Below are positions 58,389 to 62,917 of a DNA stretch of 64,000 nt, in pieces (position 1 is the first letter of the stretch; each line of letters opens with the position of its first letter). Source of the DNA: Bifidobacterium asteroides DSM 20089 (lineage in GTDB: Bacteria > Actinomycetota > Actinomycetes > Actinomycetales > Bifidobacteriaceae); assembly GCF_002715865.1 (NCBI RefSeq), contig NZ_CP017696.1, forward strand, positions 992,001 to 1,056,000. The letters run 5' to 3'. The position numbers were made by a program, and so were the translations under genes. The notes under the pieces were generated by a model. That model did not search any database, was not told the origin of the DNA, and was given only the letters and a program-made list of their open reading frames with translations.

Positions 58389-58522
58389 AGGGATTCGCTC
58401 CTTACATGTCATTTCGCACCTGCACCGACTGCGTGCAGACCCTTGTCATTGTCAGTCCTGGCAAGGACGGCAACACTGGTTAGGCAAATGCTTGACACTG
58501 CCCCCGGGGCCCATCTATGTTA

Positions 58523-58676
58523 TTGGGTGGTCGGTAGGTGAAGCTACCGCATGGACAAGGCATGCTGCCGCAAAGTGGTGGAGACACCCCGCGCAGGTCA
58601 ACAGTCCCCGTCGGGTCAAGGCAGGGACTAATGCAGGGCCAAATACCATGCGAAGCCGAAGCTTGAACGATGACAA
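58523..58676 (+). ncRNA. M-box (ykoK) magnesium riboswitch
   Basis: The leader of the transporter operon contains the M-box conserved blocks in order: GGTAGGTGAAGCTACC then GCATGGA, GCTGCCGC, GGTGGAGACACC, GGTCAACAG, a GTCCC/GGGAC hairpin, AATGCAG, and GCCGAAGCTTGAACGATGAC. These match the B. subtilis mgtE leader class from memory, block by block. It lies about 80 bases upstream of the GTG start. A hairpin (GGTCGGCT with GGCCGATC, about 58678-58697) follows; I cannot tell whether control is on transcription or translation. Confidence 0.85.
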
Positions 58677-58755
58677 TGGTCGGCTCATGGGCCGATCGCC
58701 ACGCCGTCTTCGAGGCTGCCGACAGGGATGTTCCGCACCTTGGAGGGAGGCCATC

Positions 58756-60519
58756 GTGAATACTGTCGCACTGCCAGGAATGCTCCGTTCGCCACTGAAC
58801 GACGACCGCAGCCAGGCATCGCGCTCCACCCGCATATGGACGGGCCTGGCCGTAGCCATAGGCGCACTGGTCCTGCTGGGGGCCCTGGCCTACCTGCTGC
58901 CGGCCCTGGGTGCGCCCATCGGCCCTGCAGGCGTACCATCGCACGTCTCCACCGAACCGACCAACCTGCCCTACTACGCGCTGCGCTCCCTCTTCCGCAT
59001 GTTCGCGGCCCTGATCATTTCCCTGGTCTTCGCCTTCCTCTACGGACTGGCCGCCGCGCGCTCCCGCCGCCTGGGCGCCGTGCTCATCCCCCTGCTGGAC
59101 ATCCTGCAGTCGGTGCCTGTGCTGGGCTTCCTGTCGGCCACCATCTCCATCTGGCTGGTCCTTTTCCCCGGGTCCATCATGGGCGTGGAGGCGGCCTCCA
59201 TCTTCGCCATCTTCACCAGCCAGGCATGGAACATGGCCTTCTCCTTCTATAACTCCCTGACCAGCGAGCCCGCCGACCTGGACGAGGCGGTGAGGCTGAT
59301 GCGCCTGACCCGATGGCAGCGCTTCTGGAAGCTGGACGTACCCAACTCCATGATCCCCCTGCTCTGGAACTGCATGATGAGCATGGGCGGCGGCTGGTTC
59401 TTCCTGACCGCCTCCGAGATGATCTCGGTCAACAACAGGACCCTGGCCCTGCCCGGCATCGGCTCCTTTGTGGAGGAGGCCACCGCCGAACAGGACCTGG
59501 GCAAGGTGGGTCTGGCCATCCTGACCATGATCGTGGTGGTCCTGCTGATTGACTTCCTGCTCTGGAAGCCACTGACCGCCTGGGCCGAGAAGTTCCGCTA
59601 CACCAGCAGCCAGTCCACCGAACCACGACGCAGCCTGGTGTTGACGGTCATCCGCCTGTCCGGAGTCAAGGACCTATTGGGCCTGGTAGGACACCCCCTG
59701 GCCGACCTGCTGGACCGGATCACCCGCCCCCTGGGTCGCACAGGAGCGCGCTGGAGCCGTGGAGGCGGACGCAGGCGGGCAAGCGACCTGGTCTGGTGGG
59801 TCTGCCTGGCCCTGATCGGTCTGTGGGGACTCTGGCAGCTGGACCGTCTGGTCATCCGTCCGCTGGGCCTGGGCGAGGTCGGGCATGTCTTCCAGCTTGG
59901 TCTGCTGACCTTCCTGCGGGTGCTGATTCTGATGGTGGTCTGCACCATCGTCTGGGTGCCCATCGGCGCCCTGATCGGCATGAATCCGCGCATCTCCCGC
60001 TACCTGCAGCCCCTGGTGCAGATCCTGGCCTCCTTCCCGGCCAACTTCATCTTCCCCTTCGTCACCATGGTCTTCATCATCTGGCGGATCGACATCAACT
60101 GGGGCAGCATCCTGCTCATGGCCCTGGGCACCCAGTGGTACATCCTCTTCAACGTCATCGCCGGGGCCTCCTCCATTCCCGACGATCTGCTGGAGATGTC
60201 GCGCAGCCTGGGCCAGAACCGCTGGCAGCGATGGAAGACCCTGATCCTGCCGGCCCTGTTCGGCTCCTGGTGCACCGGCGGCATCACAGCGGCCGGTGGG
60301 GCCTGGAACGCCTCCATCGTTTCCGAGGTGGTCTCCTACGGCAAAACCGAACTGACGGCCAAGGGCCTGGGTGCCTACATCGCCCAGGTGACCGCCACTG
60401 GCGACACCCCCCGCATCATCCTGGGGGTGGCCGTCATGAGCATCTTCGTGGTCCTGGCCGACCGGTTCTTCTGGTCTCCCCTGCAATCACTGGCACAACG
60501 GCGCTATTCCCTGACATGA
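58756..60519 (+). CDS. ABC transporter permease with duplicated domain (COG4986-like)
   Basis: The 587-residue protein has two homologous permease halves, each with about five to six membrane segments. Coupling helices are seen as DEAVRLMRLTRWQRFWKLDVP in the first half and DLLEMSRSLGQNRWQRWKTLILP in the second. The family is usually described as anion-type (nitrate/sulfonate-like) because of its relatives. GGAGG at five bases before GTG 58756 fixes the start; the frame upstream crosses the riboswitch. The ATPase follows 20 bases on. No binding-protein gene is present. Confidence 0.85.
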   Translation: MNTVALPGMLRSPLNDDRSQASRSTRIWTGLAVAIGALVLLGALAYLLPALGAPIGPAGVPSHVSTEPTNLPYYALRSLFRMFAALIISLVFAFLYGLAAARSRRLGAVLIPLLDILQSVPVLGFLSATISIWLVLFPGSIMGVEAASIFAIFTSQAWNMAFSFYNSLTSEPADLDEAVRLMRLTRWQRFWKLDVPNSMIPLLWNCMMSMGGGWFFLTASEMISVNNRTLALPGIGSFVEEATAEQDLGKVGLAILTMIVVVLLIDFLLWKPLTAWAEKFRYTSSQSTEPRRSLVLTVIRLSGVKDLLGLVGHPLADLLDRITRPLGRTGARWSRGGGRRRASDLVWWVCLALIGLWGLWQLDRLVIRPLGLGEVGHVFQLGLLTFLRVLILMVVCTIVWVPIGALIGMNPRISRYLQPLVQILASFPANFIFPFVTMVFIIWRIDINWGSILLMALGTQWYILFNVIAGASSIPDDLLEMSRSLGQNRWQRWKTLILPALFGSWCTGGITAAGGAWNASIVSEVVSYGKTELTAKGLGAYIAQVTATGDTPRIILGVAVMSIFVVLADRFFWSPLQSLAQRRYSLT

Positions 60520-60539
60520 GAAGTCTGAGAGGTTCGACA

Positions 60540-61892
60540 ATGACCAAGATCAATTCCAACGGGATCATCACGGCCGAGCACGTGACCAAGACCTACCAGT
60601 CCGACAAGGGCGCGGAACTGACCGTCCTGGACAACATCGACTTCACCCTGCACGAGGGCGAGGTGGTGGCCATCCTGGGCCGCTCCGGCGCCGGCAAGTC
60701 CACCCTGCTGCGCATCCTGGCCGGCCTGGTCCCGGCCAGCAAGGGCAGCGTCGAATACCGGGGCAAGCAGCTGGACGGGCCCAACCCCGGCGTGGCCCTG
60801 GTCTTCCAGAGCTTCGCCCTGATGCCCTGGCTGACCGTCAAGGACAACGTCGAACTGGGCCTGCAGGCCCGAGGAGTTCCCAAGAAGGAGCGCGAGAAAC
60901 TCTCCCTGGCCGCCATCGACGCCATCGGCCTGGACGGCTTCGAGAGCGCCTACCCCAAGGAGCTCTCCGGGGGCATGCGCCAGCGTGTGGGCATCGCCCG
61001 GGCCCTGGTCCTCAAGCCTGATGCCCTCTTCATGGACGAGCCCTTCTCGGCCCTGGACGTGCTGACCGCCGAGAATCTTCGCCAGGAGGTCCTCAAGGTC
61101 TGGTCCGAGGAGGCAGGCAGCGTCAAGTCGGTCCTGATCGTCACCCACAACATCGAGGAGGCGGTGGAGATGGCCGACCGGGTCCTGGTCCTGGACTCGC
61201 ATCCCGGCCGGGTCATCGCCAACGTGCCCGTCAATCTGGACAGGCCTCGGGACAAGCAGTCCGACCTCTTCCAGTCCTGCGTGGACTACCTCTACTCCAT
61301 CCTGACCGGTCAGCGCGACAGCGAGGACATCCGCCGCCGTCTGCAGACCAAGGTGCGCAACCGTCAGGCTGTGCGGGACTCGGTTCGGGACGAGGACACG
61401 GCCGAGCGCAACCTGCCCGACGCCACCCCCGGCGGCCTGGCCGGCCTGGCCGACGTCATGGTCAACCAGCCCAACGGCATGGACCTGGCCGACCTGGCCG
61501 CCAAGCTCTCCTTCGAGGTGGACGACCTCTTCCCCCTGATCGACGCCGGACTCATGCTGGGCATCTTCCAGGCGGACAACGGGCATGTCAGGCTGACCGA
61601 CCAGGGTCGTGCCTGGCACGACGCGGACATTCTGGAGAGCAAGGAGATGTTCTCACGGATGCTGATGGACCACGTTCCGCTGATCCGCATCATCGACCGG
61701 GCCCTGAAGAACAGCGACGACAAGAGCCTGCACGGCTCCCTGATCCTGGACCTGCTGAGGGCCCACCACTCGGACAAGGAGGCCGTCCAGCAGTTCGACA
61801 CCGCCATCACCTGGGGCCGCTACGGCGAGCTCTTTGACTACGATGCCGACGACGACCGGCTGACCCTGGACCCGGAGAACCACACCGAGTGA
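60540..61892 (+). CDS. ABC transporter ATP-binding protein with C-terminal AAA-associated domain
   Basis: The 450-residue protein has an ATPase with Walker A GRSGAGKS (47-54), Q-loop Gln 90, LSGGM (142-146), MDEP (165-168) and switch His 203. Residues from about 270 form a separate helical domain (GLADVMVNQPNGMDLADLAAKLSFEVDDLFPLIDAGLMLG, then MFSRMLMDHVPLIRII) of the AAA_assoc_C type, predicted to be a regulatory winged-helix-like unit. It follows the duplicated permease, and the two form one transporter. ATG 60540 was preferred over 60516. Confidence 0.87.
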   Translation: MTKINSNGIITAEHVTKTYQSDKGAELTVLDNIDFTLHEGEVVAILGRSGAGKSTLLRILAGLVPASKGSVEYRGKQLDGPNPGVALVFQSFALMPWLTVKDNVELGLQARGVPKKEREKLSLAAIDAIGLDGFESAYPKELSGGMRQRVGIARALVLKPDALFMDEPFSALDVLTAENLRQEVLKVWSEEAGSVKSVLIVTHNIEEAVEMADRVLVLDSHPGRVIANVPVNLDRPRDKQSDLFQSCVDYLYSILTGQRDSEDIRRRLQTKVRNRQAVRDSVRDEDTAERNLPDATPGGLAGLADVMVNQPNGMDLADLAAKLSFEVDDLFPLIDAGLMLGIFQADNGHVRLTDQGRAWHDADILESKEMFSRMLMDHVPLIRIIDRALKNSDDKSLHGSLILDLLRAHHSDKEAVQQFDTAITWGRYGELFDYDADDDRLTLDPENHTE

Positions 61893-61943: not shown

Positions 61944-62008
61944 CCTCGGGCGATGGAACCCGCCCGGGGCTTGAGCCCCGAACCGCAAACCGCTGACAGT
62001 TCCTGCAC
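61944..62008 (+). ncRNA. Fluoride riboswitch (crcB RNA)
   Basis: The sequence has the crcB-RNA blocks: GGGCGATGGAACCCGCCC (P1), an inserted hairpin GGGGCTTGAGCCCC, then AACCGC, GCTGA and GTTCCTGC. The loop GGAAC can pair with GTTCC, which is the diagnostic pseudoknot. The third stem is weaker than usual. It precedes two crcB genes, the best known target of this RNA. Confidence 0.8.
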
Positions 62009-62045
62009 CATGATTCGACGACCCCGTCTGCGGGCCGGGTGCAGG
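62002..62045 (+). promoter_or_regulatory. Hairpin competing with the fluoride riboswitch
   Basis: CCTGCACC (62002-62009) and GGTGCAGG (62038-62045) form an 8-bp stem. The left arm includes the end of the riboswitch (GTTCCTGC), so the two folds exclude each other. This suits an expression platform. No T run follows directly, so whether it terminates transcription or acts otherwise is unclear. Confidence 0.55.
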
Positions 62046-62102
62046 CGCATACCATTCAGCCCGACCCTGCGGATGCTGATCCGTCGGGAACCGAGGCCTC
62101 CA

Positions 62103-62540
62103 ATGACCAAACCCCCTACCGGACCTGACATGGCCACGGCCCTGGTGGTGATGCTGGGCGGAACCCTGGGCACCGGCTGCCGGTACGCCTTGAGCCTGCT
62201 GCCGGGCCAGAGCGGTCCGCTGCATCCGGGAACCCTCCTGGCCAACCTGATCGCCTGCGCAGGCTACGCCCTGCTGACCGCCTTTCTGGCCGGGCTTCCC
62301 AAAAGCGCACATGCACGCCGAAGGCAGCTGACCAACAAGGGCCTGGGCATGGGCCTGTGTGGAGGGCTTTCGACCATGTCCACCCTTTCGCTGGAATTGG
62401 TCCAGGGCCTGTCGGGCGGCCAAGTCCGGGCAACCCTTGCCTACCTGCTGGTCTCCTTCGTCGGAGGCCTCTTGGTCTCCTCGGCCATGGCAGGGCTGGG
62501 AGTGCGTTTGGCCGCACGCATCCAGGCGGGTGCGCGATGA
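62103..62540 (+). CDS. crcB: CrcB/Fluc fluoride channel, first subunit
   Basis: The 145-residue protein has four membrane segments. GGTLGTGCRYAL and LLANLIACAGYALL are the Fluc motifs, and GLCGGLSTMST occupies the place of the Phe-box GGFSTFST, so both phenylalanines are replaced. Gram-positive Fluc channels often work as pairs of unlike subunits. GAGG seven bases upstream supports ATG 62103; an ATG at 62130 is possible. It overlaps the second copy by four bases. Confidence 0.87.
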   Translation: MTKPPTGPDMATALVVMLGGTLGTGCRYALSLLPGQSGPLHPGTLLANLIACAGYALLTAFLAGLPKSAHARRRQLTNKGLGMGLCGGLSTMSTLSLELVQGLSGGQVRATLAYLLVSFVGGLLVSSAMAGLGVRLAARIQAGAR

Positions 62541-62917
62541 CCATTACGTTTACGTTGCTGGTTTGCCTATGCGGCGGCATGGGGGCCGGACTGCGCTACC
62601 TGCTGGATACCCTGGTCAAGGCCCGCTGGCAGGTGGATCTGCCCCTGTCGACCATGGTCATCAACCTGCTGGCCGGATTGGCTGCAGGGCTGGTGGCCGC
62701 CCTGGCCACCTTCCACGGACTGCCTAACTGGGGACGGCTGCTGCTGGCCACAGGACTGCTAGGTGGCTTCTCCACCTTCTCGACAGCGGTCAACGAAGTG
62801 TTGGCCCTGGCTCGGCAGAGACGGCACCTGGCAGCCCTGGGCTATCTAGCAGCTTCGATCTTCCTGCCGCCTCTGTTGACGGCCCTGGGCTTCCTGCTGG
62901 CAGGACCCGGCATGTAG
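62537..62917 (+). CDS. crcB: CrcB/Fluc fluoride channel, second subunit
   Basis: The 126-residue protein has four membrane segments and the intact Fluc motifs: CGGMGAGLRYLLD, TMVINLLAGLAAG, and GLLGGFSTFSTAVNE with both Phe residues of the Phe box. The ATG overlaps the stop of the first crcB (ATGA), giving equal, coupled synthesis for a likely heterodimer that exports fluoride. The convergent BASS gene ends 32 bases further on. Confidence 0.92.
   Translation: MTITFTLLVCLCGGMGAGLRYLLDTLVKARWQVDLPLSTMVINLLAGLAAGLVAALATFHGLPNWGRLLLATGLLGGFSTFSTAVNEVLALARQRRHLAALGYLAASIFLPPLLTALGFLLAGPGM

Follow-up and report, generated by a model that had tools for sequence, protein, structure and literature searches.

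The M-box locus

The 64,000-nucleotide stretch of the Bifidobacterium asteroides DSM 20089 genome analyzed here (the window) carries an M-box, a magnesium riboswitch, in front of two genes encoding the fused permease and the ATPase of an ATP-binding cassette (ABC) transporter. The M-box is genuine and belongs to a known RNA class. A cmscan search returned a single RF00380 match in the window (58523–58681, forward strand), which scores 93 bits against a cut-off of 44, spans the full model (1–169), has an E value of 2.7e-20 when 5 kb are searched (3.5e-19 for the full 64 kb window), and is the sole match found in the 2.19 Mb genome. The initial annotation had recognized the M-box by its conserved blocks, and both the blocks, in their order, and the covariance model bear this out. 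Across 25 aligned Bifidobacteriaceae copies, 11/40 pairs predicted by RNAalifold include at least one sequence that changed on both sides with pairing kept, which makes the match a structural one. The score, the covariation and the M-boxes of 41 family genomes (below) rule out a chance or mis-scored RNA. The locus is laid out as follows.

58492–58521, +: sigma-70-like promoter, TTGACA-18-TATGTT (consensus scan, 10/12 matches, 1 found vs. 0.0 expected in shuffles)
58523–58681, +: M-box riboswitch aptamer (RF00380; 93 bits, cut-off 44; covariation in relatives)
58682–58755, +: link between aptamer and permease, with the Shine-Dalgarno (SD) sequence GGAGGGAGG at 58742–58750 (from sequence; terminator scan, 0 found)
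58756–60519, +: fused ABC permease, 587 amino acids (P0001), two BPD_transp_1 stretches (Pfam, 108.3 bits)
60540–61892, +: ABC ATPase, 450 amino acids (P0002; ABC_tran, 113 bits)
61491–61844, +: C-terminal AAA-associated domain (AAA_assoc_C, PF09821), ATPase residues 318–435 (120.9 bits, cut-off 27.6)

Transcription probably begins upstream of the RNA, since the promoter-like site ends at 58521, and TTGAC..TATAAT-like sites lie at the equivalent place before the M-box in the relatives inspected. For a start downstream of 58676, which the initial annotation regarded as fatal to its proposal, this site lies on the wrong side. The most likely permease start is GTG 58756, which follows GGAGGGAGG and lies 74 bases past the aptamer match; the open frame upstream of this GTG extends through the aptamer and is assigned no role. 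The genes themselves are as first described: a two-in-one permease with two BPD_transp_1 stretches, an ATPase joining ABC_tran to AAA_assoc_C, and no binding-protein gene among the immediate neighbors inspected. The M-box-governed genes contain no domains of the CorA, MgtE, MgtA or NrmT classes, their only matches being BPD_transp_1, ABC_tran, AAA_assoc_C and weak P-loop models.

We consider it probable that these genes form an operon, repressed by magnesium, that encodes an Mg2+ importer of the ABC type. Transcription from the promoter would yield an RNA whose first 159 bases are the M-box. With ample cytosolic Mg2+, the folded aptamer would hold expression low, and at low Mg2+ it would open and allow the permease and ATPase to be made. 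The fused permease, whose single chain contains both membrane halves, would then work with two copies of the ATPase to bring Mg2+, or a complex containing it, into the cell at the expense of ATP, with no dedicated binding-protein gene beside the pair.

Because a terminator scan found no intrinsic terminator after the M-box in the window, control would presumably act at translation. Across 25 family loci, whose sequences are related, the link region is predicted to mask the SD sequence more strongly than shuffles do (mean exposure 0.21 vs. 0.35; P = 4e-5, Wilcoxon test). In the window itself, masking is not above that of shuffles (exposure 0.36 vs. 0.29, with 41/60 shuffles as low). The permease starts 85–87 bases past the last conserved aptamer bases in three loci of the window's group, and in 18 relatives a short leader open reading frame (ORF), described below, starts 85–183 bases past the same bases. 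The simplest reading of these positions is that the switch targets the first ribosome-binding site behind the aptamer, which would be the leader's in most species and the permease's own in the window's group; the folding tests do not prove this reading. In most of the bifidobacterial species covered, a short acidic leader peptide is the first ORF after the switch; in the window's group this ORF is gone, and the ribosome-binding site of the permease occupies the position expected for that of the leader.

The window RNA shares its full-length match, core blocks and 5′-leader position with the RF00380 M-boxes of the Bacillus subtilis mgtE and Clostridium acetobutylicum nrmT leaders. It differs from them in preceding an ABC permease/ATPase pair rather than MgtE, CorA, MgtA or NrmT, and in having no intrinsic terminator. 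M-box linkage previously led to the magnesium transporter NrmT. The paper introducing it lists NrmT as the fourth class of bacterial magnesium transporters; no ABC system is among the four, and the string "abc" is absent from the text (PMC4072509). A link between the M-box and an ABC transporter was already noted in 2017 for Bifidobacterium breve UCC2003, where an M-box (YKOK leader) lies in the expressed 5′ region of Bbr_0406-07 (permease COG4986) and a single sentence suggests a role in metal homeostasis (PMC5746004). That account, as far as its available text goes, covers one species, and the gene-content test, the leader peptide and the other lineages come from the present analysis. Among openly licensed papers we found nothing closer on an M-box or magnesium riboswitch with an ABC transporter or in Bifidobacterium. 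One survey lists ykoK among its RNA motifs and does not name bifidobacteria in its main text (PMC3766115), and the main text of a B. breve TraDIS paper names neither Bbr_0406-07 nor magnesium (PMC5514069).

Linkage within the family and recurrence outside it

The M-box is tied to this permease throughout the family. It occurs in 41/189 Bifidobacteriaceae genomes, once in each and with scores of 85–124 bits, and in 41/41 the permease lies downstream on the same strand. The gap of 16–726 bases falls into classes of 253–726 bases (24/41), 73–76 bases (16 genomes, the window's group) and 16 bases (G112). In G112 (locus L014) the M-box is followed immediately by just the C-terminal half of the permease, reflecting either a deletion or an assembly fault. 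PF09821 exceeds its cut-off in 66 family genomes, comprising 40 of the 41 M-box genomes and 26 that lack the M-box; in the remaining M-box genome (G142) the M-box lies 1.9 kb from a contig end, so close that the ATPase would fall beyond the contig. A custom model (R1, built from 26 M-boxes) detected no M-box at the 26 M-box-less family loci (top score 10.7 bits, E = 0.72). The only other known RNAs before M-box-less copies were tRNAs, across 16 of the 26 Bifidobacteriaceae loci, 14 named loci (2 from Actinomycetota and 12 from other groups) and 17 further Actinomycetota loci.

The pairing recurs outside the family. In a phylum sample, 34/396 genomes have an M-box, the window's own included, with a best score of 155 bits. 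Among the 30 M-box loci from other genomes (3 further M-box genomes gave no locus), this permease follows the M-box in one, G476. Five of the 30 loci were profiled, and their best matches are MgtE in three (one over its cut-off) and NRAMP in two (below cut-off). The genus of G476 belongs to another actinomycete family, in which other members carry rv1535-like M-box loci in front of an ileS-like gene; on that ground we regard the family as Mycobacteriaceae. Within this genus 7/59 genomes have an M-box, and 4/7 of these precede the ABC permease; the other three precede an MgtC-family gene (one) and P-type ATPases best matching the magnesium type (two). These three matches all score below cut-offs, and both P-type genes are truncated where the locus ends.

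Permease relatives in named genomes comprise at least 79 loci. Among the matches listed, 11 have an M-box: 10/10 in Bifidobacterium and 1/69 elsewhere, in Citrifermentans bremense. There an M-box of 136.4 bits (Rfam) is followed by a hairpin and T-run and then by the same permease/ATPase pair. A quick permease tree requires 9 changes of the M-box label, of which starred branches force at least 6; long branches (including G476) make details unsure. From these comparisons, the M-box/permease pairing appears to have arisen, or to have been kept, in at least three distant lineages, with most relatives outside the family lacking it.

Among the 69 other loci (from the matches listed), the next recurrent ORF cluster beyond permease and ATPase occurs in 18, with opposite-strand clusters excluded as shadow frames and neighbors not named by profile. 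A binding-protein partner may be encoded elsewhere. At L195–L202, distant permease relatives of the same phylum (28–42% identity) are paired with ATPases of 249–264 amino acids, too short for PF09821.

Substrate of the transporter

Cells must import magnesium. CorA is present in 142/161 high-quality family genomes, and MgtE exceeds its cut-off in 0/189. The 19 high-quality CorA-less genomes split in two: 8 have a magnesium P-type ATPase (TIGR01524, MgtA) over cut-off and no PF09821, and the other 11 (G049, G071, G090, G113 and G118–G124) have PF09821 but lack CorA, MgtE, NRAMP and TIGR01524 at scores over cut-off. In these 11, the ABC pair is the sole recognized candidate for magnesium import. 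Five of them keep the M-box and six lack it, and in five of the six, on inspection, the promoter (TTGACA...TATAAT, AGCACG) almost directly abuts the ribosome-binding site, with the switch seemingly excised. Such excision fits a transporter that has turned housekeeping. The M-box-less loci L156, L158, L159, L174 and L176, from close relatives in the CorA-less clade, have junctions similar to one another, with promoter-AGCACG joined to TTAAGGAGGTGAT. Yet M-box carriers are scattered among them on the tree, pointing to repeated loss or to exchange.

In another genome, G024 (L178), a magnesium-type P-type ATPase follows about 90 bases after the ABC ATPase in the same direction (TIGR01524 657.6 bits summed over pieces, cut-off 610.75). 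The frame of this P-type ATPase seems to be interrupted near its start.

The initial annotation proposed that a magnesium-sensing RNA here governs a transporter of magnesium or of magnesium homeostasis. Linkage in 41/41 genomes, recurrence in two other lineages, the P-type ATPase of G024 and the 11 CorA-less genomes all support this, and the transporter is a strong candidate for a new class of magnesium importer. If so, an ABC system would be using ATP to import an ion that is kept at millimolar levels, which would surprise transport specialists, and relatives annotated by similarity as nitrate/sulfonate-type, as the initial annotation described them, would need another look. Gene content points to organisms in which the ABC pair should be essential, which is directly testable.

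Several results weigh against an Mg2+ importer under M-box control. The 11 CorA-less genomes belong to one clade of the permease tree and so represent roughly a single evolutionary event. They also contain P-type ATPases that score below the magnesium cut-off, leaving room for other carriers. The M-box is missing from 26/66 family carriers, from most relatives outside the family (present in 1/69 non-Bifidobacterium loci among the matches listed) and from all but 2/9 close carriers in the phylum sample. We also saw no signal of a switch between the P1 strand and an anti-SD: freeing the 3′ P1 strand shifted SD exposure by more than 0.1 in 3/21 loci (1 up, 2 down), in a crude constrained folding that scored 21 of 25 loci and dropped 4 in which the pattern missed the aptamer end. 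Finally, CorA is also present in 35/41 M-box family genomes, and the nearest solved relatives of the pair transport nitrate and bicarbonate.

The last two points also favor an alternative that we consider rather unlikely, namely that the pair imports a substrate other than Mg2+ that is useful when magnesium is scarce, be it an anion, a chelate or an organic cation (for instance, a polyamine), with the M-box just timing expression. The AlphaFold model of the permease (predicted local distance difference test, pLDDT, 84.4) best matches the fused FbpBC permease, a ferric-ion importer, and CmpB; that of the ATPase (pLDDT 88.8) lies nearest to the NrtBCD and CmpBCD ATPases among solved folds, with 34–37% identity to those chains that align alone. 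Best NCBIfam matches are to nitrate, taurine and SaoP/SaoA families, all under their own cut-offs (for named substrates, ntrB 75.4 of 209 and PRK11248 taurine ATPase 214.8 of 357). A BPD_transp_1 permease and an ABC ATPase, the parts of nitrate/taurine-type importers, are both present in the window pair, as they are in NrtBCD, CmpBCD and TauABC. The window pair differs from these in its fused permease halves, its PF09821 C-terminus and the lack of an adjacent binding protein; the C-terminus of CmpC/NrtC is a solute-binding-like domain. A substrate other than Mg2+, however, leaves unexplained the 11 genomes without CorA, MgtE, NRAMP or MgtA above cut-off, as well as the M-boxes of one genus at which MgtC-like or magnesium-type P-type ATPase genes take the place of the ABC genes.

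It is improbable that this subset of M-boxes and their transporter serve another divalent cation such as Mn2+. M-boxes have been reported to lie beside mycobacterial manganese-transporter genes and to associate with other divalent ions (PMC12810186), and the family M-boxes, at 85–124 bits, fall short of the top score in the phylum sample (155 bits). The window genome, however, has a separate NRAMP gene, the CorA-less pattern speaks for magnesium, and for NrmT, where Shin et al. considered this same possibility, their data favored magnesium (PMC4072509). Least probable is an M-box that is a relic with no regulatory effect here: such a relic would fit with the absence of a terminator, with SD masking no stronger than in shuffles at this locus, and with close relatives that have lost the M-box cleanly, but the aptamer core is retained with compensatory changes in 25 distinct family copies, and the leader is reported as expressed in B. 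breve (PMC5746004).

Within the proteins of the putative Mg2+ importer, ten permease residues are conserved in every row of an alignment of 88 permeases from many phyla (E145, E221, E524, Q118, Q156, N159, N205, Q460, N466 and N518). In the ATPase model, the C-terminal part comprises two units of helix plus strand hairpin that look winged-helix-like from their secondary structure; this appearance neither supports nor excludes the role as a second sensor that the initial annotation suggested for the domain. Foldseek gave no fold name for PF09821, the best 50 of 1925 rows all being ABC-ATPase chains.

A short acidic leader ORF, and neighbors of the pair

An unexpected extension of the M-box/ABC finding is a candidate leader peptide between switch and transporter. 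We scanned for ORFs of 20–120 codons preceded by a ribosome-binding site, choosing by strength of the ribosome-binding site and not by acidity. Such ORFs are present in 24/24 M-box loci with gaps of 253–726 bases and in 24/26 M-box-less loci (shuffles about 2 each), so the leader persists at loci where the M-box was lost; many of these loci are close kin, and the counts overstate independence. In the window's group, a ribosome-binding site with a short ORF occurs in 1/7 loci (shuffles 1.4), and a leader with early acidic residues, present in other bifidobacteria, in 0/7.

Leader N-termini are alike (MADDLPSS, MSDELPSS, MDDVPHHS, MDSDSAHQ, MKHDSSS) and the remainder of the peptides is dissimilar. 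Among distinct N-termini, including three from outside the family (G307, G568 and G476), 40/40 have D or E within residues 2–5 (residue permutation mean 14.7, max 26); a 14-codon candidate with no early acid (L081) fell outside this set through the length limit. Serine codons 2–14 are AGT in 90/132 cases (68%) versus 105/1888 (6%) in the permease genes, and 90/91 AGT triplets in the first 45 leader bases are in frame.

When an early acid and an AGT codon are required, the leader is found in 11/30 phylum M-box loci (shuffles 0.42, max 3) and in 6/6 further loci of the genus of G476 (shuffles 0.05). Four loci from what we take to be the genus Mycobacterium carry the leader MSSSDSPD. MPEDGERPS precedes MgtE (L068) and MESDPGSR a candidate NRAMP-like frame (L054); MDDVRSR, MDDPASR and MSDDGSSR precede MgtC-like and P-type genes, and MSDGPSIS precedes the ABC permease. 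Because leaders also follow the M-boxes of MgtE, NRAMP-like, MgtC-like and magnesium-type P-type ATPase genes, the leader seems to be tied to magnesium control in Actinomycetota rather than to ABC genes. Acidic AGT-serine leaders lie 80–140 bases after the M-box at L042, L044–L046, L052, L054, L064, L068, L071 and L223–L225 (the gene behind L064 is off the contig).

The association has limits. Most MgtE-type loci of the phylum sample show no such leader. At ABC loci of other Actinomycetota it is found in 5/10 (shuffles 0.2; L189 and L190 repeat L188), at those of distant Actinomycetota relatives in 0/8, and outside Actinomycetota in 2/67 among the matches listed (shuffles 0.98). None occurs within about 500 bases before corA in three genomes (G000, G139 and G024), and the pattern was found 0 times in viral contigs.

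Leaders of similar build are known from two settings. In Mycobacterium tuberculosis, the pe20 M-box is followed by an upstream ORF (uORF) under translational control with Rho, uORF2/Rv1805A, which like the bifidobacterial leaders is a short conserved ORF with a strong SD after an M-box (PMC12810186). It was called mycobacteria-specific in that report, whereas we find leaders built in the same way in bifidobacteria and elsewhere in Actinomycetota (the window's group having none), and a shared leader peptide would offer a common explanation for this orphan mycobacterial uORF. In Salmonella, the short uORFs MgtQ, MgtL and CorL precede magnesium transporters and, like the bifidobacterial leaders, have acidic residues or prolines close to their N-termini, CorL having fewer of them (PMC8092293, PMC11552253). 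Asp2 and Glu5 of MgtQ are described as lowering its own translation and raising that of MgtB (PMC8092293), and MgtL as depending on proline and acidic residues (PMC11552253). The bifidobacterial leaders differ in host and in sequence; the parallel is suggestive of ribosome-based magnesium sensing.

We raise a broader scheme tentatively, as possible rather than probable. The ABC pair would be a new class of primary-active Mg2+ importer, and the sole one in the CorA-less Bifidobacteriaceae clade. In Actinomycetota, the pair and other magnesium transporters would share a two-stage sensor, an M-box plus an acidic leader peptide that, as a nascent chain, destabilizes the ribosome at low Mg2+, with the leader able to act alone where the M-box was deleted.

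Some named relatives have permeases 96–99% identical to that of the window, which places it in the B. asteroides group. The ABC pair is flanked by a flavodoxin-fold gene upstream, on the opposite strand, and by two crcB genes downstream. Directly before these adjacent crcB genes lies a fluoride-riboswitch-like RNA (RF01734, 61940–62012) that scores 29.5 bits, below its cut-off of 34. CRCB domains are found in the frames 61953–62537 and 62537–62914, and the magnesium switch and this putative fluoride switch stand about 3.3 kb apart.

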